A stretch of DNA of 64,000 nt from Stappia sp. 28M-7. Lineage in GTDB: Bacteria > Pseudomonadota > Alphaproteobacteria > Rhizobiales > Stappiaceae. Positions 9,472 through 26,245 of the stretch are shown piece after piece. The stretch is taken from positions 2,812,258 through 2,876,257 of the forward strand of contig NZ_JACMIA010000001.1 in NCBI RefSeq assembly GCF_014252955.1. Direction: 5' to 3'. Position numbers and translations under genes: made by a program. The notes beneath the pieces are model-generated. The model searched no databases and was not told the DNA's origin. It was given only the letters and a program-made list of their open reading frames with translations. The stretch's first letter is position 1. The number at the start of each line of letters is the position of its first letter.

Positions 9472-10359
9472 TTGGAGAACGACCGGTCGGAACTTCGCTG
9501 GGGTGTCGAGCAGCGCCTCGAGTTCATAGAGTTCCGCCTGTTCTGGGAGGGATACGTGAACCGCAGCGATCTGATGGAAAAGTTCGGGGTCTCGGTGAAC
9601 CAAGCGTCCACCGACCTGAACCGCTACATCGGCTTCGCGCCGGACAACATGGTCTACGACAAGAGTGCGCGAACCTATGTACGAGGCTCCGAGTTCAAAC
9701 CGCAGTTCCTCGAGCCTGACGCGAGCCGCTACCTTGCACAGCTGCAATCGGTCGCTGACGGGATCCTCGACCGCGAAGACGCCTGGATCGCCAATCTCCC
9801 GCCTTACGCGGCCGCCCCTACACCGGTTCGTGGGGTCAATTCGGCAACGCTTCGTTCGGTCGTTGGCGCCATCCGCCGGTCCGAGGCGGTCGAGGTAAAG
9901 TACCAGTCCCTGTCCAGCCCCGAGCCGCGCTGGCGCTGGATCGCCCCCCATGCCATCGCGTTTGACGGCTTCCGATGGCACACTCGGGCGTTCTGCCAAA
10001 CCGACGATTGCTTCAAGGACTTCCTGTTGTCGCGGATGCTCGAGATCCGAGGCTCGGGCGAAAGCGACAAATCGGCCGGCGACGATCACGACTGGCTTGC
10101 CGAGATTACGCTGGAAGTCGGTCCCCATCCCGACCTCTCGGAAACACAAGCGAAGGTAATCGCGCTCGATTATGGCATGCGCGGCGGCAAGGCGAAGATA
10201 AAGGTGAGACGTGCGCTCCTCTACTATGCGCTCAAACGCCTCGGTCTAGATACCGCCCCCGAAGCGCGCACGCCCCAGGACCAGCAGATCGTGCTTATCA
10301 ATCGCGACGAGATTTTCAGCGGCATTGGAGCAGCTGGCGCTCCGGAGGATTCAAAGTGA
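9472..10359 (+). CDS. WYL-domain transcriptional regulator (BrxR/CapW-like)
   Basis: The protein has an N-terminal winged helix (residues about 10-70, including GYVNRSDLMEKFGVSVNQAS), a central WYL domain (about 125-190, with HAIAFDGFRWHTRAFC and DFLLSRML) and a C-terminal WCX-like domain. This layout matches BrxR/CapW regulators that repress BREX, CBASS and other defence loci and may sense a nucleic acid or nucleotide ligand through WYL. TTG 9472 is preferred because GGAGGT ends 4 nt before it, giving 295 residues; an in-frame ATG at 9424 would give 311 but lacks a ribosome site. It is the first gene of the operon, 63 nt before the next start. Confidence 0.85.
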   Translation: MENDRSELRWGVEQRLEFIEFRLFWEGYVNRSDLMEKFGVSVNQASTDLNRYIGFAPDNMVYDKSARTYVRGSEFKPQFLEPDASRYLAQLQSVADGILDREDAWIANLPPYAAAPTPVRGVNSATLRSVVGAIRRSEAVEVKYQSLSSPEPRWRWIAPHAIAFDGFRWHTRAFCQTDDCFKDFLLSRMLEIRGSGESDKSAGDDHDWLAEITLEVGPHPDLSETQAKVIALDYGMRGGKAKIKVRRALLYYALKRLGLDTAPEARTPQDQQIVLINRDEIFSGIGAAGAPEDSK

Positions 10360-10422
10360 AGCCTTCTTCGAACATCGCGTCCAGTTGCCTGAAGTCGACA
10401 AGTTCATTTGAGGAGAGCGAGA

Positions 10423-12345
10423 TTGGGTAAACAAGCGGCATTCAAGACCAACCCGGTCAGCTTGGAAGAGCTTCTCCGTCAGTGCGGAAACGGTAAGATC
10501 CAGTTGCCGGATTTCCAGCGCAGTTGGGTGTGGGACGAGGAACGGATCAAGGGGCTGATCGCCTCGATCTCGCAGGCCTTTCCGGTCGGCGCCTTGATGA
10601 CGCTCGAGGTGAAGCTTGGTGCGGCTGACACCTTCGCACGCCGACCAATCCAAGGGGCAGACGCCGCAGTTGGCCATGATGCGCCGGATCAGCTCTTGCT
10701 GGATGGCCAGCAGCGCATGACCTCGCTTTATCAGACCTGCTTGCGCCGCGAGGTCGTGCAAACGGTCACGCCTCGCCTCAAGCTCGTGAAACGCTGGTTT
10801 TACATCGATATTCGAAAAGCAATGAAGCCGGCTGAGGACCGCGAAAACGCCATTATCTGTGTACCCGAGGATCGGCGGATCAAGTCGGACTTCGACCGGA
10901 AGATCGCCCTCGATCTCTCCACGCCGGAACTCGAATACAAAAATCTCATGTTCCCGCTGAACCAGGTTTTTGACTGGGACGAATGGCAAGATGGCTTCAA
11001 CGAATACTGGCTCGATAACGACCCGGAGACACGCAAGCTTTTCAAGCCGTTCAAGGATGAGGTCCTTCAGAACTTCAAGGCCTACCAGCTGCCCGTGATC
11101 GCATTGGGCCCCGACACTTCCCACGAGGCCGTCTGTCTGGTCTTTGAGAAGGTAAACACCGGCGGCAAGCCGCTCGACGCATTCGAGCTTGTGACCGCGA
11201 TGTATGCAGCCCGCGGCCATCGCCTGCGGGACGACTGGCTCGGCGCCGACGGGCAGCCGGGGCTCCAGACGAGGCTTCAGCTCTTTGGGCGGGCAGCCGA
11301 ACAGAAGTTCGGCGTGCTGGAAAAGGTCGCCGCCACAGATGTGCTACAGTCGATCGCCCTCCTGCATGGGGTTGAGACCCGCGCGGCCGAAATCGCCGCC
11401 GGGCGCAGGGAGTCGGAGCTGTCCGCAGTCCGGGCCACGCGTCAGTCACTCCTCGACCTGCCGCTGGAGGCCTACCTGAAACACCGCGCTGCGGTCGAAG
11501 AAGGGTTCAAGACTGCGGCGAAGTTCCTCCGGCAGAACCACATCTATCGGGTCATCGACTTGCCCTATCAGGGCCAGCTTGTCCCCTTTGCCGCGATCCT
11601 CGCCATCATCGGGCCGAGGTTCGACCACGCTGCAGTGAAAGACCAGCTCGCCCGCTGGTTCTGGTGCGGCATTTTTGGCGAGCTGTATGGCTCGGCCATC
11701 GAGTCCCGATTTGCCAAGGACGTGCTCGAGGTTCCCGCGTGGCTTGACGGTGGACCCGAACCCAGCACCATCACCGATGGCCGCTTCCGCCCGGAGCGAC
11801 TGCGCACCCTGCGCACTCGCCTGTCGGCTGCCTACAAGGGCATCCACGCTCTTCTGATGGCCGAAGGCGCGCGAGATCTTCGCTCCGGCCAGTACTTCAA
11901 GGACACGGTATTCTTTGACGAATACATCGATATCCACCACATCTTCCCGCAGGACTGGTGTAACAAACAGAAGATCGAGCCGAAGGTCTTTGACACCGTC
12001 ATCAACAAGACGCCGCTCAGCTACAAGACCAACCGCATTCTTGGCGGCGTAGCACCATCGGTCTACCTGGAACGACTGGGAACAGGCGGAAAGGACAACC
12101 CGCCGATCGCCCGCGAAGCGCTTGACGATTATCTGGCGTCCCACGGGCTGGATCCCTCCTTGCTAAGGGCGGATGACTTCGAGGGATTCATGGCGGATCG
12201 GGAGACGCGGCTCCTTGCCATGATTTCAAAGGCAACCGGGCATGCGATCATCAGGGCAGATTCCGTGCCGGAGGAAGGCGAGGACGTTCTCCAGGACGAC
12301 GAAGGCTTCGATGTTCCAAGCCCGGACACAGAGGAGGCCGCCTGA
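10423..12345 (+). CDS. DUF262 protein with C-terminal HNH motif (GmrSD-like)
   Basis: A 640-residue protein with an N-terminal DUF262 domain: IQLPDFQRSWVWDEERI (about residues 22-38) and LLLDGQQRMTSLY (about 92-104), the ParB/sulfiredoxin-like NTPase core of GmrS. Near the C-terminus IDIHHIFPQDW (His505-His506) followed by INKTPLSYKTNR forms an HHxxP...N...N motif like the DUF1524/GmrD HNH nuclease. GmrSD cuts modified phage DNA, so a modification-sensing nuclease is a reasonable inference. TTG 10423 has GGAGAG 7 nt upstream and is chosen over TTG 10408. Its stop abuts the helicase start (TGAATG). Confidence 0.85.
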   Translation: MGKQAAFKTNPVSLEELLRQCGNGKIQLPDFQRSWVWDEERIKGLIASISQAFPVGALMTLEVKLGAADTFARRPIQGADAAVGHDAPDQLLLDGQQRMTSLYQTCLRREVVQTVTPRLKLVKRWFYIDIRKAMKPAEDRENAIICVPEDRRIKSDFDRKIALDLSTPELEYKNLMFPLNQVFDWDEWQDGFNEYWLDNDPETRKLFKPFKDEVLQNFKAYQLPVIALGPDTSHEAVCLVFEKVNTGGKPLDAFELVTAMYAARGHRLRDDWLGADGQPGLQTRLQLFGRAAEQKFGVLEKVAATDVLQSIALLHGVETRAAEIAAGRRESELSAVRATRQSLLDLPLEAYLKHRAAVEEGFKTAAKFLRQNHIYRVIDLPYQGQLVPFAAILAIIGPRFDHAAVKDQLARWFWCGIFGELYGSAIESRFAKDVLEVPAWLDGGPEPSTITDGRFRPERLRTLRTRLSAAYKGIHALLMAEGARDLRSGQYFKDTVFFDEYIDIHHIFPQDWCNKQKIEPKVFDTVINKTPLSYKTNRILGGVAPSVYLERLGTGGKDNPPIAREALDDYLASHGLDPSLLRADDFEGFMADRETRLLAMISKATGHAIIRADSVPEEGEDVLQDDEGFDVPSPDTEEAA

Positions 12346-15300
12346 ATGAAAGCGTTTGAGTTCGACCATCAATTGATCCGTGCTTACGAGCACTTTTCGC
12401 GTTCATTCAGCGCAATTCGAGCACCCGACCTGAAATCCGAGATCGATGCCCAGTACGACGCCGGAAAATTCTGGCCGGATGCCCTCTTGTCTCTGAACCC
12501 ACGCTTCATGGCGGGGCCGACGGTCGATGAACTCGTCGCCACGGGTGATCTCGACGACGGCACGGGCAAGGTTTTCCGGTTTGGCACTACGCCTCTTCGC
12601 TTTCATCGGCACCAAGCCGAGGCCATCGCAAAGGCGAAGCAAGGAAAGAGTTATGTCGTCACGACCGGTACGGGTTCGGGGAAGTCTCTGTGCTTCTTCG
12701 TGCCGGTTGTCGACGCAATAATCCGCGCGCGGCGCGCAGGAAAGCCGCGCCGTACGACGGCAATCATCGTTTACCCCATGAACGCACTGGCAAATAGCCA
12801 GATGAAGGAGATTGACAAGTTCATCGCCGGTTCCGGTTTGCCCGATGAGCTCAAGCCGGTGGTCAAGCGCTACACCGGTCAGGAAAGCCGTGAAGAACGC
12901 GAGCGCATCGCTGCCAATCCGCCCGATGTTCTCCTGACGAACTACATGATGGCAGAACTGCTTCTAACGCGTCAGGACGACCTGGACTCGAAAGTCGTCT
13001 CGAACGCGTCCGGTCTCGAGTTCATCATTCTCGACGAACTCCATACCTATCGCGGGCGCCAAGGTGCCGACGTCGCGGTCCTCGTTCGACGCCTGCGGGA
13101 CAGGTGCTCGCCTGACAAGGAGCCAATCTGCATCGGGACCTCGGCAACGATGGCCTCCGAGGGATCGGACGAGAGCCGCGCACTTGCTGTCGCGAAGGTA
13201 GCGTCGCGTCTTTTTGGCACCGACATTGGCCCGGACGCGGTCATCGACGAGTCCTTGCAGCGCGCGACCGATGACGCCCTGAAGACCGAGCACGTCCTTG
13301 GCGCTTTGAAGACGGCCCTGACTCAGCCATTGCCGGACGCACTCGATGACGAAACCCTGAAGCGCCATCCGTTCTCGGTGTGGGCCGAACTCGAACTCGG
13401 ATTGGACGATGGGCTTGAGCTTCGCAGGAAGAAGCCTATCCCTTTCGAAGAAGCCGTTGAAAAGCTTTCTCTGGCCAGTGCGGTCGACGCCGAAACCTGT
13501 CGAGACTATCTCGAAAAATTCCTGACCCGGGTAAGCCTGCCGGAGCATGAGCGCGGCGGCACGAAGGACGGAGCCTTTCTCGCCTTCAAACTCCACCGGT
13601 TCATCTCTGGTGCCGGTGAAGTCTTTACGACGCTCACAGCCAGGCCGCGTCGGATCCTTCTTGAAGGGCAGCTCGAGGACCCCGAAGCCCCTGGAAACCG
13701 CCTCTACCCCACGCGGTTCTGCCGAAATTGTGGCCAAGAATACCATGTCGTGACCAAGGTAGACGATGATGGGAGATTGCGCTTTCTGCCCCGAAGCATC
13801 GACGACACGCCGCTCGACACTGAAGAAGACGAGGTTGCAGGGTATCTCTGTCCGGTGACGCCCGGCGATACTGACTTTCAGTTCACTGGCGAGCTTGAGG
13901 GTTACCCCGAAAGCTGGCGAGAAGAGAAAAACGGCATTGAACGGCTGAGAGGGTATCGCAAGAATCGTATGCCGGTGTCCTACGTCGTGGGTGCTGATGG
14001 TCGCCACGGAGCGGGCGGAAACGATTTCTGGTTCATCCCGGGAAAGTTCGCGTTCTGCCTGTGCTGCCATGACGAACCGACGCAGGGGATGCGAGAGCGC
14101 AGCAAGCTGGCGGGGCTGTCCGGCGAAGGGCGAAGCTCGGCAACAACCTTGCTGGTCGCCAGTGCCCTGGAGTGGATGAACAAACCTGGCAGCGGCGTTC
14201 CCGAGACGAAGCGGAAGCTTCTAGGGTTCACGGATAACCGTCAGGATGCAGCCCTGCAGTCTGGCCATTTCAATGACTTCCTGTTCGTGAGCCTGTTGCG
14301 CGGAGCCATCCTTCGCGCGGTCATTGCTGCTGGCTCAGGTGGGCTCGCAGAAGACGAGTTTGGCCTGCAGGTGGTGAAGGCGCTCGGCTTTACTGCCGCC
14401 AACAAAGAGGCGCGCCAGCATTGGCTGCTGGATTCAAATGCTGGTGCCATCATTCGTGAAGATGCCCAGCGGTCGCTCGCAAAGGTTCTCGCCCATCGTG
14501 TCTGGACGGACCTGCGTCGCGGTTGGCGCTTCACCAACCCCAGCTTGTCTGTCCTGAACCTGATCGACGTGAATTTCCTCGGCCTCGAGGAAATATCTGA
14601 AGATCGCGAGCGCTTCATGGCCATCCATCCAGCGCTGGGAGACCTCGGCCTCGAGCAGCGGCAGGCAATTCTCAAGGCGATTTTGTCCGCGATGCTCGAG
14701 GGCCTGGCTGTTCAGACCGAAGCCTTGGATCTGCCTGTCCTCGATGGCGTGGCCCAGAAATCCCGAATGCTGCTTCAGGCACCTTGGGCGATTGACCAAA
14801 AGGAAAATCCGCGAGCGCGGTCCTCACTTGTCCTGCGCGCGGGCAGCAAGAACGTCGTCACGCTGCGTGAAGAGCAAACACTTCTTCGGGCAGGTCCCAA
14901 TTCGCGGATCGCGCGTCTCGTGAACCGGAAGTCTGTTCTCGGCACGAAGCTGAACAAGGATGAGTACTACGAGTTCATGGAAGGGATGCTTGCCTTCCTG
15001 AGCGACGAAGGGCTGCTGGTGCCTGTCGAACTCGATAGCGATGTGACGGGCTGGCGCCTGTCACCATCTGCGGTTCGGCTTGTGCCTGGACCGGCCCTCG
15101 ATGATGAAACCCACCGCGGCAACCGATATTTCCACGACCTTTACACCGCGATTGCCAGTGACCTTGGCGACGGGCGTAGTTCCTACTGGGGGCTAGAGGG
15201 ACGCGAGCACACGGCTCAGGTTTCGCAGAAGCAGCGAGAATGGCGTGAATGGCGGTTCCGTTTCGAGCAGGACGACATGGACCATCTCGCGGCCTCGGAG

Positions 15301-17523
15301 TACCGAACGGAAATTCGGGCAACGGGCGAGTCAGACCGGTTCCTGCCCGCGCTATTCTGCTCTCCGACTATGGAACTCGGCGTTGATATTTCCGCCTTGA
15401 ACGCCGTCTACCTGCGCAACGTACCACCCACGCCGGCGAATTACGCGCAGCGCGCTGGGCGTGCCGGTCGCTCGGGCCAGGCCGCGGTTGTCGTGACCTA
15501 CTGCGCCTCGGGGTCTCCGCATGACCAGTATTTCTTTGAACGGCGCAACGATATGGTGGCCGGTGTCGTGCGGCCGCCGGCGCTCGACATCACGAATGAA
15601 GAGCTGGTTCGATCGCACCTACATGCGGTGTGGCTTGCGGAAGCAAAACTGGCGCTTTCTCCCGACATCCCAGAGATTCTGGACCTTCACGGGGATAAAT
15701 TCCCGCTGAAGGAAGACGTTCTGGCGGTCATCTCGAAACCCGCTCTGGTTTCGCAGGCACGGGGACCGATGGCGCGTGTCTTGAAGCAGATTCTGGCGTC
15801 CGACGGAGGGCAAACCCCGATCTGGATGGACGATCCAGACGAGTTCGTTCTTCACACGACCATGAATGCCCCAAAGGAGTTTGACCGTGCCTTCGACCGT
15901 TGGCGCGAGCTTTATAGCTCTGCCAGGACGCAATTGGCTGAGGCGAACAAGCGTTCGGAGATCACGGGGCTCTCGGGAGCCGACCGGCGCAAGATCAAGG
16001 CTGCGCAGATGCAAGCCCAGGATCAGATCGCCATCCTCGAACAAGGCAAAGCCTCGAATGGCTCCGATTTCTATTCGTATCGGTATCTGGCGACTGAGGG
16101 CTTCTTGCCCGGGTACAACTTCCCGCGCCTGCCGCTCTACGCGTTTGTCCCAGGCGAAGGTAAGACGGGGTCATTCCTGTCAAGAGCTCGGTTCCTGGCC
16201 ATTTCCGAATTCGGCCCGCGCAGTCTGATCTATCATGAGGGCCGCGCCTACCGGGTCATGAAAGCCAAATTGCCGCCCGAGGTGCGTCAGGGCGACGGAT
16301 CGGAATTGGCGACCAAGGATATCTACATCTGCTCCAACTGTGGTGCATCGCATGAGGGCGAGGTCGAGCGTTGCCATGGGTGCAACAACCACATGGCGGG
16401 TGAGGTCCCCATTAAGAAGACCCTGCGCATCGACAACGTCGAGGCCGCCCCGACTGAGCGCATCACGGCGAACGATGAAGAGCGCGTTCGGCAGGGCTTT
16501 GACATCCAGACCGTCTTCTCCTGGCCGAAGAAGGATGGGCGGGTCCAAGTGACCAACGCCAAATTCGTCTGTGGCGAGACCTCCCTCTTGGCCCTGCAGT
16601 ACGCCAACAGCGCGGAAATCAGCCGTCTGAACAAGGGCTTGAAGCGCAGAAAGGACCAGACTGTCTTCGGTTTCCACATCGATCCAAGGTCCGGCTACTG
16701 GGCGAAATCCGACGACGAGGACAGCGACACGGACGTTCCGCCCGACGTGGTCAAGCCGGTTCGCATTGTCCCGATTGTTCGCGACAGAAAGAATGCCCTG
16801 TTGTTCCGCTTTGAAAAGCCTGAGCAGTACGAGCCCGAGACTATCACGACGGTTCAGCATGCGTTGCTGCGCGGAGTTGAAGTGGTTTTCCAGTTGGAAG
16901 AAAGCGAAATCCTCGGCGAACCGCTGCCCGCGAGGGACAACCGTCGCGCAATCCTTGCCTACGAGGCAACGGAAGGCGGCGCCGGCGTACTCACGCGCCT
17001 GATCGATGACGGAAAAGCAATCAACGAGGTGGCGAAGACCGCACTTGGTCTAATGCACTTCGAGAATGTGGATGCTGCGATTGCTGCGGGTGATGCGGAT
17101 CTTTTGCAGGAGAAGAAAGACGGAAGCTGTGTTCGCGGCTGCTACCGTTGCCTGCTGTCCTATTTCAACCAACCGGACCATGAGCTGATCAACCGCTCTA
17201 GCCCAGAAGTTACGCAGTTCCTGATCGATCTTGCACGCGGCACGATTTCCCTTGCTGCGAAGCCGACCGCTGGAACGGTGGCATCACCATGGCTTGAGGC
17301 ATTCAGCGCATCAGGCATTCCCCAAGTCGATACGATGCCCGCGAGCTTTGGTGGGCGCGAATTCGAGTTCGTTTGGCGCGCATTCGCGGTTGCCGCGACG
17401 ACCGCTGACCTGACTGCAGAAGCTGAGGCAGATGCGATGAACAAGGGCTGGGTCGTTTTTGGATTGCCTTCAGCGCCGTCAGAAGGGCTTCCAGATGGCT
17501 TTATGAAGAATTTTGAAGGTTGA
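12346..17523 (+). CDS. Giant DEAD/DEAH-box helicase with DUF1998 region (DruE/DrmAB-like)
   Basis: A 1725-residue superfamily 2 helicase. Visible motifs are Walker A TGTGSGKS (Lys113), the Walker B-like DELH (230-233) and motif VI QRAGRAGRSG (about 1035-1044), preceded by SPTMELGVDIS. Cysteine pairs that could bind zinc occur at FCRNCGQEY (about 457), CLCCHDE, ICSNCGASHEGEVERCHGC (about 1327-1345) and, in the DUF1998 part, CVRGCYRCLLSYFNQPDHE (about 1594-1612). Large DUF1998 helicases occur in Druantia (DruE) and, split in two, in DISARM (DrmA plus DrmB). It probably translocates on DNA as the motor of the system. Start follows the previous stop directly, so it is coupled. Confidence 0.85.
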   Translation: MKAFEFDHQLIRAYEHFSRSFSAIRAPDLKSEIDAQYDAGKFWPDALLSLNPRFMAGPTVDELVATGDLDDGTGKVFRFGTTPLRFHRHQAEAIAKAKQGKSYVVTTGTGSGKSLCFFVPVVDAIIRARRAGKPRRTTAIIVYPMNALANSQMKEIDKFIAGSGLPDELKPVVKRYTGQESREERERIAANPPDVLLTNYMMAELLLTRQDDLDSKVVSNASGLEFIILDELHTYRGRQGADVAVLVRRLRDRCSPDKEPICIGTSATMASEGSDESRALAVAKVASRLFGTDIGPDAVIDESLQRATDDALKTEHVLGALKTALTQPLPDALDDETLKRHPFSVWAELELGLDDGLELRRKKPIPFEEAVEKLSLASAVDAETCRDYLEKFLTRVSLPEHERGGTKDGAFLAFKLHRFISGAGEVFTTLTARPRRILLEGQLEDPEAPGNRLYPTRFCRNCGQEYHVVTKVDDDGRLRFLPRSIDDTPLDTEEDEVAGYLCPVTPGDTDFQFTGELEGYPESWREEKNGIERLRGYRKNRMPVSYVVGADGRHGAGGNDFWFIPGKFAFCLCCHDEPTQGMRERSKLAGLSGEGRSSATTLLVASALEWMNKPGSGVPETKRKLLGFTDNRQDAALQSGHFNDFLFVSLLRGAILRAVIAAGSGGLAEDEFGLQVVKALGFTAANKEARQHWLLDSNAGAIIREDAQRSLAKVLAHRVWTDLRRGWRFTNPSLSVLNLIDVNFLGLEEISEDRERFMAIHPALGDLGLEQRQAILKAILSAMLEGLAVQTEALDLPVLDGVAQKSRMLLQAPWAIDQKENPRARSSLVLRAGSKNVVTLREEQTLLRAGPNSRIARLVNRKSVLGTKLNKDEYYEFMEGMLAFLSDEGLLVPVELDSDVTGWRLSPSAVRLVPGPALDDETHRGNRYFHDLYTAIASDLGDGRSSYWGLEGREHTAQVSQKQREWREWRFRFEQDDMDHLAASEYRTEIRATGESDRFLPALFCSPTMELGVDISALNAVYLRNVPPTPANYAQRAGRAGRSGQAAVVVTYCASGSPHDQYFFERRNDMVAGVVRPPALDITNEELVRSHLHAVWLAEAKLALSPDIPEILDLHGDKFPLKEDVLAVISKPALVSQARGPMARVLKQILASDGGQTPIWMDDPDEFVLHTTMNAPKEFDRAFDRWRELYSSARTQLAEANKRSEITGLSGADRRKIKAAQMQAQDQIAILEQGKASNGSDFYSYRYLATEGFLPGYNFPRLPLYAFVPGEGKTGSFLSRARFLAISEFGPRSLIYHEGRAYRVMKAKLPPEVRQGDGSELATKDIYICSNCGASHEGEVERCHGCNNHMAGEVPIKKTLRIDNVEAAPTERITANDEERVRQGFDIQTVFSWPKKDGRVQVTNAKFVCGETSLLALQYANSAEISRLNKGLKRRKDQTVFGFHIDPRSGYWAKSDDEDSDTDVPPDVVKPVRIVPIVRDRKNALLFRFEKPEQYEPETITTVQHALLRGVEVVFQLEESEILGEPLPARDNRRAILAYEATEGGAGVLTRLIDDGKAINEVAKTALGLMHFENVDAAIAAGDADLLQEKKDGSCVRGCYRCLLSYFNQPDHELINRSSPEVTQFLIDLARGTISLAAKPTAGTVASPWLEAFSASGIPQVDTMPASFGGREFEFVWRAFAVAATTADLTAEAEADAMNKGWVVFGLPSAPSEGLPDGFMKNFEG

Positions 17524-17524
17524 T

Positions 17525-20302
17525 ATGACTGTGAATTTTACTCCTGGAGACCTTGTTAGAGCGCGCGGCCGTGAATGGGTTGCCTTGCCGACACCCGGTG
17601 AGGGCCTGCTTGCCCTGCGCCCTCTCTCGGGCAATGAAAATGATATCGTGGTTCTTGCTCCGGATCTCGAGCTTACACCGGTGGAAGCCGCTCGCTTCGA
17701 CCTGCCTGACGATGCGCGCACGACAGTGCAGTCCAAGGCGGCCCTTCTTGCCGACGCGTTGCGACTGACCCTCCGCCGGGGGGCAGGCCCGTTCCGATCC
17801 GCCGCACAGCTTGCTTTTGAGCCTCGGACGTACCAGCTGGTCCCACTTCTCATGGCCCTTCGGCTTCAGGTCCCGCGCTTGTTGATTGCCGACGACGTTG
17901 GCATCGGCAAGACCATCGAAGCGGGTCTGATACTGCGCGAACTGATGGATCGCGGAGAGGTCGACGCGTTTTCCGTTCTCTGTCCTCCGCACCTCGTGGA
18001 CCAGTGGATCACAGAACTGAAGGATCGCTTCGGGATCGATGCCGTTGCCGTCACCTCCGGGACTGCGGCGCGTTTGGAGCGCAACCTCCCATTGGCGCAG
18101 ACCCTTTTCGATGCCTATCCGTTCACGGTGGTCAGCCTTGACTACATCAAAGCCGAGAAACGCCGGGATGGGTTCGCCAGGGCCTGTCCGGATTTCGTTA
18201 TCGTCGATGAAGCACACGCCTGCGTCGGGACGCACAAGGGAAAGCAGCAGCGTTTCAACCTGCTCCAAGGCCTTGCAAGCGATCCTGCACGTCGGTTGAT
18301 CCTGCTGACAGCCACGCCGCACTCCGGGGACGAAGAGGCATTTGCTCGGCTTCTGTCGCTAATCGACACTGAATTTGGCAAGGGGAATTTCGATGATCAA
18401 AGATACCGCGAGCGCCTTGCACGGCACCTTGTTCAGAGGCGTCGAGCCGATATCGTCGATGGCGATTGGGGCGAGGATCGCGCTTTTCCTAAGAAGGAAG
18501 AACTGGAGGGGGGACTCGCCTATGATCTGAGCGACGCGCATCGATCCTTCCACGAGGCCGTACTTGATTACTGTTTCTCGGTCGTGTCTCGGGCCGGAGA
18601 TGCACAGAAGGATCGCCGCCTTGCTTTCTGGGGCACTCTGGCACTGATGCGCTGTGTCGGATCGTCACCCGCAGCCGCAATGAGCGCGTTGCGAAACCGG
18701 GCTTCCAATGAAGACGACCGCCTCGAGCCGCAGATCTACGACGAAGATGGCGATGACGAAGACGCCGTGGACATCGAGCCAAACACCGTCTTCTCAAATG
18801 ACCCCGCTCTCCAAGGGCTACTCGACAAGGCCAGCGAACTTTTGACGGCCGAAGATCCCAAACTGAACGCCCTCATCAAGGCCCTCAAACCCTTGATCAA
18901 AGACGGCGCTAACCCAGTCGTCTTCTGCCGCTACCTCGCCACGGCCGAACATGTGAAGGAAGGACTTCGTAAGGCCTTCCCCAAGCTAACTGTGCAGGCC
19001 GTGACGGGTGAATTGACGCCGGACGAACGTCGCGATCGCGTCGCGGAAATGGCGGCGGAAGAAAGCGCCGCCACAGATCAGCGCATCCTTGTTGCCACGG
19101 ACTGCCTGTCGGAGGGGATCAACCTTCAACAGCTGTTCGACACCGTGATCCACTACGACCTTTCCTGGAATCCGACGCGTCATCAACAGCGCGAAGGTCG
19201 CGTGGATCGTTTCGGGCAACCCGCCGAACTCGTTCGCTCGATCATGATGTTTTCGCCCGACAGCGCCATCGACGGTGCCGTCTTGGACGTCATTCTCCGC
19301 AAGGCTGAAGAAATCCGCAAGGCGACGGGCGTGACTGTGCCTCTGCCCGACGAGCGGGGACCGGTCACCGATGCGCTGATGGCGGCAATGATGCTTCGCC
19401 GTGGCGGAGGCCGCCACAAGCAGCTGACGCTGGACCTCCAAATCGGCGACGGCATCCAGGTGATGGAGAACCGCTGGCGCGATGCAAGCGAGAACGAAAA
19501 ACGGTCTCGCGCCAGGTTTGCACAAAACGCCATAAAGCCGAGTGAAGTCGCTCCTGAATGGGACAAGGTGAAGTCTCTACTCGGATCGCCCGCGGAAACG
19601 CTTGAATTCCTCGAGCGTGCGATGTCTCGGTTCGGGGTGCCCCTCGAGAAGAAAAAGTCGCTGCAATTCGCCCACGTGCATGCCCTTCAGGATAGCCTCA
19701 AGGAAAAGCTGGAGCAGCGTGGGCTGAAGGGATCACTCACGCTTGCCACGCAGGAACCGGCGCCCTCAGGGGCTTCGCTTCTGACCAGAACCCATCCGCT
19801 GACATCGTCCTTAGCGGAAAGCCTGCTTGAGGCCTCCCTCGACACCGAAGCACTGCCGGATCTCGGCATCGGGCGTGTCGGGGCCTGGCCAAGTACCGCC
19901 GTCACTCAGATGACGCGTGTCGCTCTCTTGCGTATTCGCTACAAGCTCACGGTTCATGCACGGCGCGAGCGCCTTCTGCTGGCAGAGGAAGCCGCCCTCG
20001 TTGCCCTCGACAGCAACACGGTGATTGCGTCTGGCAGCGAGGCGCGCGCGCTGCTTGCCTCGCCCGCGACCGCTGATCTCGCGCCTGTCGCCCGCGACCG
20101 GATGATCAATACGGCGAAGGCGGCCCTTCCTGACCTGTTGGGCGGCCCGATTGCCGATTTCGTGCAAAAGCGTGCCGCGGAGCTGGTTGAAGACCACGCC
20201 CGCCTTCGTGCTGCCGCCGGTTCTGCGTCGCGTGTCAGCGTGGAGCCGATAATTCCCCCAGACGTCATCGGCCTCTTCGTTCTTGTTCCGGGGGAGGTGT
20301 AA
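17525..20302 (+). CDS. SNF2/RapA-type helicase (DrmD-like)
   Basis: A 925-residue SNF2-family translocase. Motif I is DDVGIGKTIEAGL (Lys129), motif II is DEAH (228-231), motif III is LLTATPHSG (about 257-265), and the C-terminal lobe has ATDCLSEGINLQ and motif VI QREGRVDRFGQP (about 555-566). RapA/HepA-like proteins of this kind occur as DrmD in class 1 DISARM and in other defence operons. An acidic insertion (about 402-425, rich in D and E) separates the two lobes. ATG 17525 lies 2 nt after the preceding TGA with GAAGG upstream; the methylase starts 2 nt after its stop, the arrangement described for drmD-drmMI. Confidence 0.88.
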   Translation: MTVNFTPGDLVRARGREWVALPTPGEGLLALRPLSGNENDIVVLAPDLELTPVEAARFDLPDDARTTVQSKAALLADALRLTLRRGAGPFRSAAQLAFEPRTYQLVPLLMALRLQVPRLLIADDVGIGKTIEAGLILRELMDRGEVDAFSVLCPPHLVDQWITELKDRFGIDAVAVTSGTAARLERNLPLAQTLFDAYPFTVVSLDYIKAEKRRDGFARACPDFVIVDEAHACVGTHKGKQQRFNLLQGLASDPARRLILLTATPHSGDEEAFARLLSLIDTEFGKGNFDDQRYRERLARHLVQRRRADIVDGDWGEDRAFPKKEELEGGLAYDLSDAHRSFHEAVLDYCFSVVSRAGDAQKDRRLAFWGTLALMRCVGSSPAAAMSALRNRASNEDDRLEPQIYDEDGDDEDAVDIEPNTVFSNDPALQGLLDKASELLTAEDPKLNALIKALKPLIKDGANPVVFCRYLATAEHVKEGLRKAFPKLTVQAVTGELTPDERRDRVAEMAAEESAATDQRILVATDCLSEGINLQQLFDTVIHYDLSWNPTRHQQREGRVDRFGQPAELVRSIMMFSPDSAIDGAVLDVILRKAEEIRKATGVTVPLPDERGPVTDALMAAMMLRRGGGRHKQLTLDLQIGDGIQVMENRWRDASENEKRSRARFAQNAIKPSEVAPEWDKVKSLLGSPAETLEFLERAMSRFGVPLEKKKSLQFAHVHALQDSLKEKLEQRGLKGSLTLATQEPAPSGASLLTRTHPLTSSLAESLLEASLDTEALPDLGIGRVGAWPSTAVTQMTRVALLRIRYKLTVHARRERLLLAEEAALVALDSNTVIASGSEARALLASPATADLAPVARDRMINTAKAALPDLLGGPIADFVQKRAAELVEDHARLRAAAGSASRVSVEPIIPPDVIGLFVLVPGEV

Positions 20303-20304: not shown

Positions 20305-23300
20305 ATGGCCCGCAAACCAATCACCGATATGTCCGCGTGGCCGTCGCTGAGCCTCGAAGGCAACCTGATCGCGCCAGCGATGATCGCCAAGATCGATCAG
20401 CGCCAGGCACCCGAGCAATCCCCCGAGGAATACGGGGTTCGCAAAGGTCTCCAGATACGTGAGGAAATCGCCACCGCCTTCCGCGTAGGCCAATCGCATT
20501 TCGATGCCTTCGCGAAGATCGAACACCCATCGGCCGCAGCAACCGCGCGTTTCATTGCCGACTTCTTCAAGGAAACCTTCGGGTATTCCGACCTCGCCCC
20601 AGCAGCGGCACCGATCGCCTTGATCGCATCCGACCGTATCCCTGTCGTCGTCGTGCCGCCGTCCGAGCTGCTTGACCGCCGCAGCCCGACGCTCTCGACG
20701 GACAGGTCTCGCTCCCCGGCCTTCGCCCTTCAGGACCACCTGAATGATCGGGACGAGGCCCTTTGGGGTATTGTGACCAACGGGATGCAGTTGCGCCTCA
20801 TGCGCGACAATGCCTCCCTGACCCGCCCGGCCTATGTCGAGGCTGATCTGGCGCAGATGTTCACCAACGAGGACATCGCGTCCTTTGCGGTGCTCTGGCT
20901 CCTGATCCACCGCACCCGCTTCGGCGCGGCAGACACCCCCGCCAACGATTGCCCCCTCGAACGTTGGCGCGATGCTGGCTCCAAGGAAGGCGAGGCCGCG
21001 CGTGATCGTCTGGCAGGTCAGGTCCAACTGGCCCTCAAGCTCCTTGGCTCGGGCTTCCTCGAGGCCAACCCCGACCTCGCCGCGAAACTGCATTCCGGCG
21101 AAGTGAACCTGACCGAGTGGTTCAACGAACTCCTGCGCCTCGTCTACCGCCTGATCTTCCTGATGGTGGCCGAGGACCGGAACCTCCTTCACCCGGAAAA
21201 GGCCAAACCCGAGGCCCGCGCCCTCTATGCCCAAGGCTATTCGCTCCAGTCGCTGCGCAAGCAATGCTACCGCGCCGCCACTTGGGACAAGCACCATGAC
21301 CGCTACGAGGGGGTGAAGATCGTCTTCCGCGCCCTCACGCAGGGCCAGCCCGCCCTTGCGCTGCCCGCCCTCGGCGGCCTCTTTGCCGAGGACAGGCTGC
21401 CCCACCTCGAGACCGCCCGCCTGCGCAACCGCGCCTTCATGGAGGCGCTCTATCGCCTCTCCTGGCTCGCCGACAAGACCGGCATGGTCCCCGTCAACTG
21501 GCGCGCGATGGAGACCGAGGAACTGGGTTCGGTCTACGAATCCCTCCTCGAACTCCAGCCTCAGCTGGGCGACGACGGCAAGACGCTGGTCTTCGCCTCC
21601 GAGGCGGCCGAGCAGAAGGGCAACCAGCGCAAGACCACCGGCTCCTACTACACGCCCGACAGCCTCGTTCAGGCGCTGCTCGACACCGCGCTCGACCCCG
21701 TGCTCGACAAGACGGAAGGAGAGGCGGACGATCCGGCCAAGGCGCTGCTGAAGCTCTCGGTCATCGACCCCGCCTGCGGCTCGGGCCACTTCCTGCTGGC
21801 CGCCGCCCGCCGCATCGCCACGCGGCTTGCTCGTATCCGGGCCGAGGGCACGCCCTCGCTCGCCGACTTCCGCCACGCGCTGCGCGACGTCGCGCGCTGC
21901 TGCATCCACGGGGTGGACCGCAACCCGATGGCGGTGGAACTGACCAAGGTCGCGCTCTGGATCGAGACGGTGGACCCGGGCCTTCCCCTCGGCTTCTTCG
22001 ACGCGCAGATCCGTTGCGGCGATGCGCTGCTCGGCGTCTTCGACCTGCAGGTGCTGCAGGACGGCATTCCCGATGCCGCCTACAAGCCGCTGACCGGCGA
22101 CGACAAGGAAACCGCGAAATACTACCTCAAGGCCAATCGCGATGCGACGGCGGGGCAAGGCGGCTTCGACTTCGGCACCGGTCAGGCGTCGATGCCCGCG
22201 ATGAAGCCGCTGGCACTGGATTTCTCGGGCTTCCGAGACCTGCCCGAGGATACGGTCGAGCAGATCGGCGCCAAGGCGAAACGGTTCAAGGAGCTGCGCA
22301 AGGGGCAGACCTTTATCCGCGCCAAGGCGGCGGCGGACCTCTATGTGGCGGCCTTCCTGCTGCCCAAGGTCGGTGGCGCACCGGCGGGAGCGTCCGCGCG
22401 CTCCGTGCCGACGACCGAAGAGATCTGGCTGGCGCTCAATCAGGGCAAGATCCGGCACGCGATGGTCAATGCACCTAGTGCCGCGCTCGACGCACGTGCA
22501 TTTCACTGGCCGCTTGAGTTCCCGGACATCATGCAGCGCGGCGGGTTTGATGTCGTACTCGGTAATCCTCCGTGGGAACGCGTTGAAGTTCAAGAGCAGG
22601 AGATATTCGCTCTCACACATCCGGAGATTGCCACCGCAAAGAATGCGGCGCACCGAAAGAGGATGATAGAGTCGCTGAGTACCGACGAGCCGAAGGCCTA
22701 CGCAAGATGGCAAGACGCACTGCGCGCTGCGGCTACCGAGGTGAACTTCTACAAAGAGAGCGGTCGCTTTCCATTTGGAAGTCCGGGTAAGGTCAATACG
22801 TACGCAATATTCGCCGATCTTGCGTGGCAGGCTGTCAACCCGTCAGGTCGTGCCGGTTTGATCATCCCAAATGGCTTAGTAGTTGGCTTTACCTATCGAG
22901 AGTTCTTGCGTCGGCTCTTGTCAGAGAAGTCATTGGTCTCGTTCTACGGATTCGAGAATGAGGACAAAATCTTCAGGGACGTGCATAACGAAACGAAGTT
23001 CGGCCTGCTCACTATAAGCGGCGCGGAAATCCAGGTTGAGCAACCGTGGTTCACGGCGCATATCAGGCAACCTGCAGAGATCTCTGATCCTGATAAGCGG
23101 TACGCTTTGAGCGTCGATGAGATCAGAGCTACCAACCCAAACACCCTTAACCTTCCCGCGTTTCGTTGGACAAAGGACGCCAAGGTCACCGCTGCCATTC
23201 ACACAGCGGCACCTGTGTTGATCGAAAAAGATGGAAATGACATTACGCGAAACGATTGGAGGCTGACATTAAAGACACTATTCAACATGGCAACTGACTC

Positions 23301-24258
23301 CAGTCATTTCATTGATCATCAGGAAGTTGCGCCGCTCATTAAGGAACGCAGAGGCGCACTGGCGGTTCTTTATGACGGTCGTGAGGTCTACCCTCTCTAT
23401 GAAGGAAAGATGTTCTGGCATTTCGATCACCGATACGGAACCTACGAAAATCAGACCGAGAAGCAGGCAAATAAAGGCGTTCTTCCGCGAGTTCCGGACG
23501 AAATGCACAGCGCACCTCATTATCAAATTCAACCGAGATACTGGGTGGATGCTCGACTGACTAAAGAAACACTAGCTGGGGACGCCGGGGCGCCTTGGCT
23601 GTTCTCTTGGAGAGACGTAGGGCCGTCGGAGCGGACTTTCATTGGGACAATCCTGCCGCTAACCGCGATGGGGCATGCCTCGCCATACTTGGCAACAGAG
23701 GCACCGGCCGAAGACGCATTGGCACTTACGGCAATTCTCTCAAGCTTGGTGGTCGATTACGCGGTTCGTCAGAAATCCAGCAGGATGACATTCTTTATTG
23801 TTGAACAGTTGCCAATGCTTGAGCGCACGAAGCTTGACGAGGCACCTACCTGGCTCGGGTCGGAGGTTCGTGCTTGGCTCAACAATCGTGCTATCGAGCT
23901 CTTCTACACAAATTGGGAGCTCCAAGGCCTTGCTGAGAGCATTGGACGGGACACACCTCCGTTCAGCTGGGACCCATCGCGCCGTCAAACCCTCCAAGCC
24001 GAAATCGATGCGGCAGTCTTCCACCTCTATGGACTGGATAGGGAACAAGTCGACTGGGTGCTGGACTCGTTCACCGTGCTCAGGAAATACGAAGAGCGCG
24101 ACCATGGCGAGTTCCGCACCAAGCGCCTGGTTCTGAACGCCTACGACGCAATGGCGAAGGCGAAGGCATCGGGTTCGGTGTACCAAACGCCACTGTCCCC
24201 ACCGCCTGCAGACCCGAGTCTCTGCCATCCTGCCGCGGCCAAAGAGGCGGCACAGTGA
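20305..24258 (+). CDS. Eco57I-type N6-adenine DNA methyltransferase (PglX/DrmMI-like)
   Basis: A 1317-residue protein. SAM-binding motif I is VIDPACGSGHFLLAA (Asp488), and catalytic motif IV is GNPPW (Asn754-Trp757), marking an N6-adenine methylase. The N-terminal third has the type I/IIG-like segment LWGIVTNGMQLRLM (about 152-165). The C-terminal part should hold target recognition. Sequence up to about 22,470 is as GC-rich as the chromosome, but 22,480-23,950, which covers NPPW and the recognition region, is clearly poorer in GC, so the gene looks like a mosaic. No PD-(D/E)XK nuclease motif is obvious, so I call it a methylase that probably marks self DNA. Confidence 0.87.
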   Translation: MARKPITDMSAWPSLSLEGNLIAPAMIAKIDQRQAPEQSPEEYGVRKGLQIREEIATAFRVGQSHFDAFAKIEHPSAAATARFIADFFKETFGYSDLAPAAAPIALIASDRIPVVVVPPSELLDRRSPTLSTDRSRSPAFALQDHLNDRDEALWGIVTNGMQLRLMRDNASLTRPAYVEADLAQMFTNEDIASFAVLWLLIHRTRFGAADTPANDCPLERWRDAGSKEGEAARDRLAGQVQLALKLLGSGFLEANPDLAAKLHSGEVNLTEWFNELLRLVYRLIFLMVAEDRNLLHPEKAKPEARALYAQGYSLQSLRKQCYRAATWDKHHDRYEGVKIVFRALTQGQPALALPALGGLFAEDRLPHLETARLRNRAFMEALYRLSWLADKTGMVPVNWRAMETEELGSVYESLLELQPQLGDDGKTLVFASEAAEQKGNQRKTTGSYYTPDSLVQALLDTALDPVLDKTEGEADDPAKALLKLSVIDPACGSGHFLLAAARRIATRLARIRAEGTPSLADFRHALRDVARCCIHGVDRNPMAVELTKVALWIETVDPGLPLGFFDAQIRCGDALLGVFDLQVLQDGIPDAAYKPLTGDDKETAKYYLKANRDATAGQGGFDFGTGQASMPAMKPLALDFSGFRDLPEDTVEQIGAKAKRFKELRKGQTFIRAKAAADLYVAAFLLPKVGGAPAGASARSVPTTEEIWLALNQGKIRHAMVNAPSAALDARAFHWPLEFPDIMQRGGFDVVLGNPPWERVEVQEQEIFALTHPEIATAKNAAHRKRMIESLSTDEPKAYARWQDALRAAATEVNFYKESGRFPFGSPGKVNTYAIFADLAWQAVNPSGRAGLIIPNGLVVGFTYREFLRRLLSEKSLVSFYGFENEDKIFRDVHNETKFGLLTISGAEIQVEQPWFTAHIRQPAEISDPDKRYALSVDEIRATNPNTLNLPAFRWTKDAKVTAAIHTAAPVLIEKDGNDITRNDWRLTLKTLFNMATDSSHFIDHQEVAPLIKERRGALAVLYDGREVYPLYEGKMFWHFDHRYGTYENQTEKQANKGVLPRVPDEMHSAPHYQIQPRYWVDARLTKETLAGDAGAPWLFSWRDVGPSERTFIGTILPLTAMGHASPYLATEAPAEDALALTAILSSLVVDYAVRQKSSRMTFFIVEQLPMLERTKLDEAPTWLGSEVRAWLNNRAIELFYTNWELQGLAESIGRDTPPFSWDPSRRQTLQAEIDAAVFHLYGLDREQVDWVLDSFTVLRKYEERDHGEFRTKRLVLNAYDAMAKAKASGSVYQTPLSPPPADPSLCHPAAAKEAAQ

Positions 24259-24398
24259 TGTTTCCGCTGCGTGCATCAGAGCCGAGCATGGCTCCACCGG
24301 AAATCCACCAACACGGCGAATACCGCACCCGTCGCCTCGTCATTGAGGCCTGGGACCGGATGAAAGCGAACGACGAGTTCACGGCGATGGGGATATGA
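24258..24398 (+). CDS. 46-residue ORF resembling the methyltransferase C-terminus
   Basis: The ATG overlaps the methyltransferase stop by one base (TGATG), so it is translationally coupled. Its residues 19-35 (HGEYRTRRLVIEAWDRM) match HGEFRTKRLVLNAYDAM near the end of the upstream methyltransferase. It therefore looks like a duplicated or left-over tail of a related methylase, perhaps a scar of the recombination that also changed the recognition region. It could instead be a real small partner protein. Only the sequence similarity and coupling are seen. Confidence 0.55.
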   Translation: MFPLRASEPSMAPPEIHQHGEYRTRRLVIEAWDRMKANDEFTAMGI

Positions 24399-24417: not shown

Positions 24418-25443
24418 ATGAGCAAAGAGTTTGATGAGGTTAAGAATGACGTTGGTGAGGGCAAGGAACCCACCACGACAGTGCGAGAACTGCTTCGTTG
24501 GTTCGGTGCGCGCAGGCGGCGAACTGGGATCGTCAAGAAGATACAGCTTGAGCTGGACGGCGCAGGGATAGTGACCAGCCCGGATTTCACAAAGGTTTGG
24601 ATCGATGCCGAGATCGCGTTCAAGAAGGCGCCCGAGCCCGTCGCCATCGTGCCCCCCCCTCAGGATCCTCAAGGTGCGGCAGACACGACGTATTCTCCCA
24701 AAGATGCGAATTTCCTGATCAGCATGCTCAAGGCGGCCAACTGCGGCGTGGTTGCGGTCAAGCCCCAAGACACCATCGAGAAAGCCATCACATTGATGTT
24801 GGCGCACGATTTTTCGCAGTTGGCAGTAATGCCGAATGATCGGACGATCAGTGGTGCGATCAGCTGGAAGACAATCGGTAAGCGGCTAAGCCAAGAAAAC
24901 AATTTGGTCGAGGTCAAGGATGCAATGGAGGCAGCCGTTGCCCTTGAAGACACGGAAGGCCTTTTCAAGGCAACTAAGCTCATCATCGATCATGAATTTG
25001 TTTTTGTGCGTTCGTCCTTGGACAAAAAAGTCACGGGAATTGTGACAGCCACAGACTTGAGCGAGCAGTTTCAATTTCTTTCGGAACCGTTTCTGCTGAT
25101 AGGCCAGATCGAGAACCAGATTCGGAACCTCATTAACGGAAAATATGCCATCGAAGTTCTGCAGAGCGTTTGCAGCGATGCCGATCCTGAGCGGAAAGAG
25201 CGTATTCAGTCAGTGGCGGATCTTACATTTGGTGAATACTTGTGGATCATTCAAAATCCTGAGCATTGGGAGAAATTGGAACTTCGCGTCGATCGCGTAG
25301 TATTTTGCGCCGAAATGGACAAAGTCAGGGAAATCCGCAATGATGTCATGCACTTCGATCCCGACGGAATCGATGAAGAGCAATACGATCAACTGAGGCG
25401 ATTCTCGAGACTAATGGATGAACTCGAAGCTTTATCACAGTAA
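24418..25443 (+). CDS. CBS-pair protein with HEPN-like C-terminal domain
   Basis: The 341-residue protein has a basic N-terminal region (WFGARRRRTGIVKKIQ, about residues 28-43), two CBS repeats (about 115-170 with TIEKAITLMLAHDFSQLAVM, and 180-235 with KVTGIVTATDL) and a helical C-terminal domain. That domain ends with the RX4H sequence RNDVMH (Arg307-His312), the signature of HEPN ribonucleases such as Swt1-like proteins. CBS pairs bind adenine nucleotides or SAM. A plausible reading is a nucleotide-controlled RNase acting as an abortive effector, but some HEPN proteins are inactive. It lies 19 nt after the small ORF and 26 nt of it overlap the HNH gene. Confidence 0.75.
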   Translation: MSKEFDEVKNDVGEGKEPTTTVRELLRWFGARRRRTGIVKKIQLELDGAGIVTSPDFTKVWIDAEIAFKKAPEPVAIVPPPQDPQGAADTTYSPKDANFLISMLKAANCGVVAVKPQDTIEKAITLMLAHDFSQLAVMPNDRTISGAISWKTIGKRLSQENNLVEVKDAMEAAVALEDTEGLFKATKLIIDHEFVFVRSSLDKKVTGIVTATDLSEQFQFLSEPFLLIGQIENQIRNLINGKYAIEVLQSVCSDADPERKERIQSVADLTFGEYLWIIQNPEHWEKLELRVDRVVFCAEMDKVREIRNDVMHFDPDGIDEEQYDQLRRFSRLMDELEALSQ

Positions 25444-26245
25444 ATATCAGGGTAGAGCATCGTTGAGTGACATTGAGATCCCCCAATCCTTCGTTACCCG
25501 CCAGGAATGCGAGAAGGTCACCTACCAGAACGGCTTCCGCCGCCCCCATGCCGAAATCGAGGGCTGGCAGCGGTACAGTTCGACGACCGCGCAAGGATCG
25601 ATCTGGCTTGCTCGGGACGCTTCCGGAGCGTGGCTCCTCGCCCTGGATCACGCCGGGGTCATTGCAGAGATCGGGATTGAGGCGTCCGATGCCGCAGGGC
25701 CAGGCCTCGCACGTTTCCGGTTTGCCTCGCTGGCACTGCTTTATGGCGTGATGCCACGCATTTACGAGCTTTCCGCAAGCCTTCCCGACGCACCACTTCA
25801 GGAGTTTCTTCACCACACGAAAAATCTGCCGACCACCACAGAGGCGGAACGCCTTGTGGTCCAGCGTGTCGGCCAGAACATCTTTCGTGAGCGTCTGATC
25901 AAATACTGGCGGGGGCGATGCCCTTTGACCGGGATTATCGACGAGCCGCTTCTCCGTGCCTCTCACATCAAGCCATGGCGCGACTGTGAAAACGACGCAG
26001 AGCGTCTGGATGTCCATAATGGCCTGCTTCTGTCGGCTCTTTGGGATGCCGTATTCGACGGCGGTCTGGTCACCTTCGGCGATGACGGCATTCCGGTCTT
26101 TTCGGAGAACCTCAGCGAGCAAGCGCGTGCGCGACTTCATTTTGATCGGCCAGTCGATCTGACCGAGAAGCATCGGGTCTTTTTGGAGTGGCATCGGACG
26201 AAGGTATTCGACGTCAAAGCGCCTGACGCCCCGCCTGCTGATTGA
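25418..26245 (+). CDS. HNH endonuclease
   Basis: A 275-residue protein with a C-terminal HNH nuclease: RCPLTGI (zinc or structural cysteine), LLRASHIKPWRDC (His183) and LDVHNGLLLSALWDAVFDGG (His200-Asn201). This is the HNH_2-like arrangement common in restriction and defence genes. The N-terminal half is a conserved but unnamed domain that may recognise DNA. Two starts are possible: ATG 25418, which overlaps the CBS-HEPN gene by 26 nt, or TTG 25463 downstream of AGGGTAGAG. It is the last gene of the plus-strand operon and would supply DNA cutting. Confidence 0.85.
   Translation: MNSKLYHSKYQGRASLSDIEIPQSFVTRQECEKVTYQNGFRRPHAEIEGWQRYSSTTAQGSIWLARDASGAWLLALDHAGVIAEIGIEASDAAGPGLARFRFASLALLYGVMPRIYELSASLPDAPLQEFLHHTKNLPTTTEAERLVVQRVGQNIFRERLIKYWRGRCPLTGIIDEPLLRASHIKPWRDCENDAERLDVHNGLLLSALWDAVFDGGLVTFGDDGIPVFSENLSEQARARLHFDRPVDLTEKHRVFLEWHRTKVFDVKAPDAPPAD

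Follow-up and report, generated by a model that had tools for sequence, protein, structure and literature searches.

A probable alphaproteobacterial variant of the ARMADA Type I anti-phage system in Stappia sp. 28M-7, with an exchangeable methylase specificity region and slot gene

Which system is encoded by a tightly packed run of helicase, methylase and nuclease genes in Stappia sp. 28M-7, and which of these genes belong to it? The run lies in a stretch of 64,000 nucleotides of contig NZ_JACMIA010000001.1 (hereafter the window; genome size 5.13 Mb), in which eight open reading frames (ORFs) follow each other on the plus strand from 9424 to 26245, either separated by 0-48 nt or overlapping by 4-26 nt. 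An earlier note, made from the sequence alone, had proposed that this is a DISARM-related operon with an unlisted combination of genes. Sequence comparisons make it probable that the operon is an alphaproteobacterial form of ARMADA Type I, a defence against phages. Its core of YprA helicase, SNF2 helicase and methylase has already been named, as ARMADA Type I (PMC12458937, in the text available), and is thus not an unlisted combination; for these three genes there is a named system of the sort that the note had said would refute it.

ARMADA was described in a preprint of September 2025 (Bell et al.; PMC12458937). According to its available text, the Type I genes are ordered YprA, BrxHII-like helicase and PglX-like methylase, an order that is reversed in many cyanobacteria and archaea, and the YprA protein has an active Vsr-type nuclease at its C-terminus and BrxA-like, MarR-like and Zn-module insertions (PMC12458937). 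The experimental tests reported in that text concern Type II only, which stops phage and loses its protection when any of its four genes is deleted (PMC12458937). The window has a giant YprA protein, a BrxHII-like helicase and a PglX-like methylase in the identical order. The same order was found in plasmid relatives from Paracoccus, Agrobacterium, Sphingomonas, Nocardioides (followed by McrB-McrC) and Rhodococcus, and the reversed order in those from Chroococcidiopsis and Planktothrix. The reversed cyanobacterial order and the McrBC neighbour in Nocardioides agree with the available description of ARMADA I.

In a tree of YprA proteins, the window sequence fell among loci with the ARMADA I gene order and away from four ARMADA II-type and two Druantia III sequences (Shimodaira-Hasegawa-like approximate likelihood ratio test, 94). 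In a second YprA tree the ARMADA II-type sequences split off again with a support of 100. The window differs from ARMADA I in its eroded YprA nuclease, in the HNH gene 3' of the methylase gene, in the WYL-DUF262 pair upstream, and in the exchangeability of the target recognition domain (TRD) of the methylase and of a slot gene behind it. In the main text of the preprint, as available, DUF262 and GmrS are absent, and WYL and HNH occur in the reference list only (PMC12458937). Two points weigh against the assignment. The YprA trees carry long-branch warnings and consist of sequences other than the published ARMADA I references, and the active Vsr nuclease reported for ARMADA I YprA was not found in the window, where the motif is lost and Pfam gave no nuclease match. 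The nuclease is treated here as a descriptive feature, because ARMADA I was drawn by YprA clade and common genes. The features of the operon are as follows.

9424..10359, plus strand: WYL-domain regulator, 311 residues, alternative start at 9472 (Pfam WYL, E=1.4e-10)
10408..12345, plus strand: DUF262/GmrSD-type Type IV restriction nuclease, probable accessory module (Pfam GmrSD_N, E=1.8e-26)
12346..17523, plus strand: YprA/DUF1998 (MrfA-type) superfamily 2 helicase, 1725 residues, Walker A K113 (Pfam DEAD, MZB and Helicase_C; trees)
17245..17520, plus strand: putative eroded remnant of a Vsr/DUF559-like nuclease at the YprA C-terminus, from position and alignment
17513..20302, plus strand: SNF2/RapA-like (BrxHII/DrmD-like) helicase-translocase (PADLOC and PDB matches)
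20305..24258, plus strand: N6-adenine methylase, PglX/DrmMI-like (Pfam Eco57I and N6_Mtase; PADLOC DrmMI, E=6.3e-76)
22654..23895, plus strand: exchangeable TRD-like specificity region of the methylase, called TRD by analogy with PglX
24255..24398, plus strand: stub of 47 codons, probably left over from the 3' end of an earlier methylase gene (DNA identity to relatives)
24418..25443, plus strand: slot gene, CBS domain and HEPN-like C-terminus, putative RNase effector (Pfam CBS, E=1e-8)
25418..26245, plus strand: HNH_2 endonuclease, a conserved anchor at the 3' end of the operon (Pfam HNH_2, E=7.7e-9)

The eight genes were found about where the earlier note had placed them, its start at 9472 being an in-frame TTG alternative to 9424, and the domains WYL, GmrSD_N, DEAD with MZB, SNF2, Eco57I/N6_Mtase, CBS and HNH_2 are backed by Pfam and PADLOC. 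The DUF262 stop codon directly abuts the YprA ATG, the YprA and SNF2 genes overlap by 11 nt, and the SNF2 and methylase genes are 2 nt apart. Relatives of YprA in the PDB are 9tu7, 9wae and 6znp (YprA/MrfA), RapA is the best PDB match of the SNF2 protein, and residues 140-235 of the HNH protein match the HNH endonuclease 6yex (E=2.6e-17). The methylase contains DPACGSGHF and NPPW (N754, nt 22564-22575), and the DUF262 protein combines GmrSD_N with DGQQR and a C-terminal HNH of the type HHIFP/NRxxG, the combination by which it was classified. With the residues that we take to be the relevant ones, the expected motifs were found in both helicases, the methylase, the DUF262 protein and the HNH protein. 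Ratios of nonsynonymous to synonymous substitution rates (dN/dS) of 0.04-0.28 against each of four loci indicate purifying selection on the six genes tested, namely WYL, DUF262, YprA, SNF2, the catalytic half of the methylase and HNH (CBS-HEPN was outside this set).

The operon was compared with other known systems using the 2023 version of PADLOC, for which labels and absences refer to the matches listed. DISARM Class 1 also has an SNF2 protein (DrmD-like) adjoining an adenine methylase (DrmMI-like). However, it has split drmA and drmB genes and the phospholipase D (PLD) nuclease drmC, according to the available text of PMC12458937, whereas the window has one fused YprA protein. DISARM Class 1 was rejected on this single fused DEAD-MZB protein and the lack of a PLD match in the operon proteins. 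Druantia III (DruH-DruE) has a homologous giant YprA helicase, and DruE1 and DruE3 are the best PADLOC labels of the window protein. The window differs in having a methylase and an SNF2 helicase; Druantia III was rejected since DruH was not among the matches listed and DruE3 is separate in the YprA tree. A DruE1 family search gave no matches anywhere and is uninformative. BREX has a PglX-like methylase as well, but PglZ and BrxC were not among the matches listed for the operon proteins, to which this search was confined. The claim that the operon is related to DISARM, yet is not DISARM, Druantia or BREX, stands. Dpd was rejected since its 7-deazapurine biosynthesis genes are absent among the operon proteins scanned, to which this search too was confined. 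ARMADA II has homologous SNF2, methylase and YprA proteins, but in the order SNF2, methylase, YprA, followed by a GajB-like helicase (PMC12458937, available text). Among four ARMADA II-type loci, the methylase gene precedes that of a ~2.1-kaa YprA protein in all four and a UvrD helicase gene follows in three, no UvrD ORF being found in the 2.5 kb read at L099 (loci are denoted here by L numbers and genomes by G numbers). The order in the window differs and no UvrD match was obtained in the operon proteins, so that Type II was rejected.

The PADLOC search that the earlier note had suggested returned no ARMADA label among the matches listed and recognised parts only, labelled DruE, DpdE and DrmMI. 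The SNF2 protein matched the models for DpdE (PDLC02853, E=2.3e-193), DrmD (E=9.4e-79) and BrxHI/BrxHII (E=2.5e-57). The labels DpdE and DrmMI and the DrmA-like matches could speak for a system of the Dpd or DISARM class with odd parts. This is very improbable, as no separate drmB, PLD drmC or Dpd biosynthesis gene was among the matches listed, and the annotated DISARM DrmA protein (L041), set as outgroup, sits on a branch of 9.9 changes per column. As an observation on the database, the model PDLC02853 spans the ARMADA-type SNF2 helicase from end to end, and ARMADA-type loci may therefore be mislabelled as Dpd parts.

Counting that of the window, genomes with a YprA match number three among the 87 searched in the family (E<=1e-60), nine among 387 in the class (E<=1e-100) and 15 among 396 in the phylum, where the threshold of E<=1e-30 also admits ARMADA II. 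Genome contigs yielded 28 loci, mostly from Rhodobacteraceae-type and rhizobial genera, with YprA proteins 73-99% identical to that of the window; in 19 of 23 close relatives the identity is 91-99%. The gene order of the operon recurs across many genera, which together with the purifying selection speaks against a chance arrangement. In the backbone tree L006 (Methylocystaceae) and L020 (Paracoccaceae) are separated by two branches of 0.01 each, which makes a recent transfer between families likely. Four relatives were found on viral contigs. At the ARMADA I-type locus on plasmid MP1 of Deinococcus radiodurans (L042) the methylase is annotated as two genes, and its end is overlapped by an ISDra3 transposase gene.

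The conserved co-occurrence that the earlier note had asked for holds for the core order and not for DUF262 as a constant part. A WYL-DUF262 pair of the window type lies 5' of YprA in nine of 29 close loci (the window and the 28; L033 keeps fragments and L025 is without upstream sequence). Where present, the DUF262 protein is 94-97% identical, with dN/dS of 0.07-0.09. Further DUF262 genes, other than the window type, adjoin ARMADA I or lie in its vicinity at L015, L016, L034, L038 and L114. DUF262 was rejected as an obligate core gene because near-identical cores lack it and its relatives live elsewhere. The WYL gene scored in 16 of 60 ARMADA I-type rows. From this distribution the WYL protein is a recurrent and likely regulator, and DUF262 appears to be a recruited accessory. 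A single fixed system of eight genes, with WYL, DUF262, CBS-HEPN and HNH all obligate beside the helicases and the methylase, is improbable. The tight, overlapping genes and the conservation of DUF262 under purifying selection would fit it, but it is contradicted by gene content, since WYL-DUF262 occurs in 9/29 loci, CBS-HEPN in 2/24, and near-identical cores hold other genes at both places. WYL, DUF262 and CBS-HEPN are therefore not core genes.

The variable parts of the ARMADA I-type operon were located by DNA alignment. Compared with the seven other WYL-DUF262 loci used (L006, L010, L020, L021, L023, L024 and L026), identity in 200-nt bins is mostly 90-98% from 9.4 to ~22.3-22.4 kb. A dip to 72-76% identity to near-identical relatives at ~18200-18600 in the SNF2 gene is a possible recombination tract, and there are a few other weaker bins. 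Separately, the YprA gene of L022 has 67-86% DNA identity to the window at 14200-14800 and mostly 90%+ in the rest of the gene. Among the 24 relatives whose backbone alignment reaches the methylase gene, the alignment stops at 22577-22651 (2-76 nt past NPPW) in 20 and at 22126 in L017. In L009, L012 and L027 it continues to 23.5-23.7 kb, and the specificity region of the window is common to these three (61-67% at the protein level). DNA similarity resumes within the HNH gene at 25472-25488 in 21 of the 24, with identities of 91-92% in six WYL-DUF262 loci and 66-85% in 15 others. The loci without a resumed match are L012 and L023, which end with their contigs, and L017, whose HNH is alike as protein only (65%).

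Between 11 close loci the specificity region is 31-63% identical. Median identities over their 55 pairs are 94.4% for the catalytic part, 41.6% for the TRD and 91.7% for the tail. For 136 pairs of 17 loci with one tail type, the values are 86.6, 38.8 and 89.8%, respectively; this set leaves out L009, L012, L019, L024, L027, L029 and the window, which are of other types, and the truncated L023. These values indicate that the specificity region has been swapped repeatedly among relatives. The specificity of PglX was shown to reside in a C-terminal TRD and has been re-engineered (PMC11341690, available text).

The ORF of 46 residues that had been counted as a gene of the operon carries the methylase tail motif HGEYRTRRLV.EAWDRM, and over 64-106 nt its DNA is 79-92% identical to 17 of the 24 relatives, mostly within the 3' part of their methylase ORF; in L012 and L024 the tail match also lies outside the methylase ORF. 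As a component of the system this 47-codon stub was rejected on the DNA match and the motif. The window methylase itself belongs to a different type that has a tail of its own. The simplest reading of the stub is therefore a leftover of a swap, namely the displaced tail of the replaced methylase.

The slot between methylase and HNH was surveyed in the window and 23 of the 28 loci, L023, L025, L030, L032 and L033 being truncated or broken. An LmuB/DUF2326-like gene is present in 11 of these 24 (L015 and L027 by profile; two ORFs in L009), CBS-HEPN in two, an M78-type peptidase in two (plus a similar shorter ORF in L012), and a 262-residue gene without assigned name in two (plus a similar 69-residue ORF in L011). 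Genes of 281 and 247 residues occur once each, and in three loci the slot is empty. A Pfam name was not found for three slot genes of 262-281 residues, nor a PADLOC match for the two scanned; the 247-residue gene of L021 was outside these scans. The window protein has a clear CBS domain, which bears out half of the CBS-HEPN call of the earlier note. Its HEPN part is a weak match (HEPN_Swt1, E=0.026, below the cut-off) with an Rx4H motif, RNDVMH, that reads RNEIMH in the sole homologue (L017, 55%).

Placed on the tree built from the 24 backbones, slot labels change 13 times, compared with a mean of 12.7 for shuffled labels, so that slot content is as good as random relative to the backbone. One TRD (86%) is common to L019 and L029, with an LmuB-like slot, and L024, with the 262-residue gene. 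Another, at 61-83% with the upper value between L009 and L027, is common to L009 and L027 (LmuB-like), L012 and the window (CBS-HEPN). The methylase exceeds 1440 residues in all 11 loci with an LmuB-like slot and in none of the 13 others, on all three methylase types; the length for L027 includes an upstream ORF extension. In each of the 11 the methylase has a C-terminal extension of 163 residues (e.g. L006:20141-20629), for which no Pfam or PADLOC match was found. This suggests a physical linkage for the LmuB slot type.

These data bear on whether the ARMADA I core plus HNH, a DUF262 (GmrSD) system and a CBS-HEPN toxin are two or three independent systems stacked in one transcript, with no joint action. 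This is possible, though doubtful. The slot genes vary freely, DUF262 relatives occur apart from ARMADA, and there are further candidate defence genes in the neighbourhood, for example PDC-S37 at L018 and a NOV_C gene in the window. However, the slot gene is flanked by methylase and HNH and hence inside the core, and an added methylase domain accompanies the LmuB-like slot in 11/11 loci. Whether the TRD and the slot gene are exchanged largely independently, as parts of a plug-in platform, is an evenly balanced question. A nearly invariant two-motor backbone would cross families, the TRD and the effector would be replaced largely independently, the Vsr nuclease would be given up for HNH, and stubs such as that of 47 codons would be left behind. 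Two observations weigh against the main reading of an ARMADA I variant with these accessory parts: CBS-HEPN was seen in two loci only, and DUF262 relatives (41-75%) occur in five further genomes of 387 without this operon; among these only G219 also gave a YprA match, which is on a different contig. The AlphaFold model of CBS-HEPN is poor (mean predicted local distance difference test score, pLDDT, 44.4).

Unlike WYL, DUF262 and CBS-HEPN, the HNH gene was confirmed as a conserved member, present in 23 of 24 loci; the remaining one, L012, lies at a contig end. The YprA C-terminus of many distant ARMADA I loci has E...PDF...DG..H at its end, and in the YprA tail of the window the PDF...DG..H motif was not found. 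Of seven intact tails, six gave Pfam matches to DUF559, MTES_1575 or Vsr (E<=8.3e-4); four of them are well above the curated cut-off of DUF559, L113 is at it and L042 just below. No Pfam match was obtained for the L114 tail and no nuclease match for the tails of the window, L107 and L040. By motif, 44 of the 60 ARMADA I-type rows are eroded and 16 intact (L013, which is split, and the partial L025, L030, L032 and L033 are not among them). A separate HNH gene is present in 38 of the 44 eroded rows and in none of the 16 intact ones, among which L094 ends early, L113 begins at the record start and L096 was partly read downstream, so that these three say little. Of the eroded rows without HNH, L012, L023 and L058 are at contig ends and L037 has an IS21 element after the methylase.

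That the separate HNH replaces the fused YprA nuclease is a good hypothesis from these sequences. Several results weigh against it. L109 and L110 are eroded, and HNH was not found in the 3-4 kb read after their methylase genes. The eroded rows are mostly one clade, although erosion may have arisen a second time in L040 (Hydrogenimonas, with HNH in L115). In a sign test of three independent pairs on supported branches, one agrees, none opposes and two show no difference. The association thus rests on one or two independent events only and the test is underpowered; with so few independent contrasts, the replacement is kept as a hypothesis. The AlphaFold model of the C-terminal third of YprA is poor (mean pLDDT 47.2, with 78-93 per block of ten in the last ~75 residues) and Foldseek of the C-terminus against the PDB gave nothing at E<=0.001, so that a surviving nuclease fold is not supported. 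A profile of the intact YprA C-termini gave only 3hrl, 'Endonuclease-Like Protein', in the PDB (E=0.062).

SMC proteins of the LmuB/DUF2326 kind work with nucleases. As this is the commonest slot gene, HNH could be the effector of the slot gene, as in an SMC-type system, with no replacement of the YprA nuclease. We consider this unlikely, because HNH adjoins the methylase or lies <=108 nt away in L016, L018, L031, L036 and L038, and because three of the 16 intact-YprA loci have an LmuB-like gene without HNH. Auxiliary GmrSD, HNH and HEPN nucleases around BREX and BREX-related systems, and compensatory nucleases beside their helicase-nuclease fusions, have been described (PMC12839542, available text), and the idea of an auxiliary nuclease is therefore not new. 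For ARMADA, no description of TRD exchange, slot exchange or HNH replacement was found in literature searches or within the available text of PMC12458937 and PMC12839542.

The operon appears to occupy a variable site. In G074, a genome of the same genus, the DUF2332-side flank and the tRNA-Ser flank are 3.1 kb apart, compared with ~22 kb in the window, and no YprA relative was found at E<=1e-60. The G+C content of the operon is 59.7%, compared with 68.1% over positions 30.8-40 and 44-64 kb of the window, two stretches picked for the comparison. An att-like repeat was not found among exact same-strand 14-20 nt repeats of tRNA-Ser left of the operon, and a promoter/terminator scan gave no signal above shuffles. 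Downstream lie IS3-type fragments (HTH_21, rve; 26862-27716), a likely defence gene for a NOV_C-domain protein (28124-28960, minus strand; PADLOC candidate PDC-S36, E=3.8e-130) and an IS256/Mutator-type transposase gene (29078-30445) with 24-nt inverted ends (83%). Positions 41001-43000 have low G+C (51%) and negative GC skew. At L018:17635-20061, directly after HNH, PADLOC candidate PDC-S37 was identified (E=1.7e-226).

From the gene content, gene order, selection, mosaic structure and motif loss described above, we infer how an ARMADA I variant of this kind might act in defence. The methylase would mark host DNA at a site set by its specificity region and would sense unmarked sites. On invading DNA that lacks the mark, two motors would load, the SNF2/RapA-like translocase and the YprA-type helicase, and would remodel or unwind this DNA. 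The cut would be made by the separate HNH protein here, as we propose because the fused nuclease domain is eroded; in other ARMADA I lineages this step presumably falls to the YprA-fused Vsr-like domain. Recombination between conserved anchors, the catalytic half of the methylase upstream and the methylase tail and HNH downstream, would exchange the specificity region and the slot gene. A constant motor pair could thereby be refitted with new targets and effectors (LmuB-like SMC, CBS-HEPN, M78 peptidase or unnamed genes). DUF262, as a recruited modification-dependent nuclease, may cover phages with modified DNA.

The loci that differ almost only in TRD and slot gene, with a motor pair ~90-99% identical, form a natural swap set. 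With this set one can ask whether the range of phages stopped is determined by the methylase specificity region, what contribution the slot gene makes, and whether a separate HNH nuclease can take the place of a helicase-fused one.

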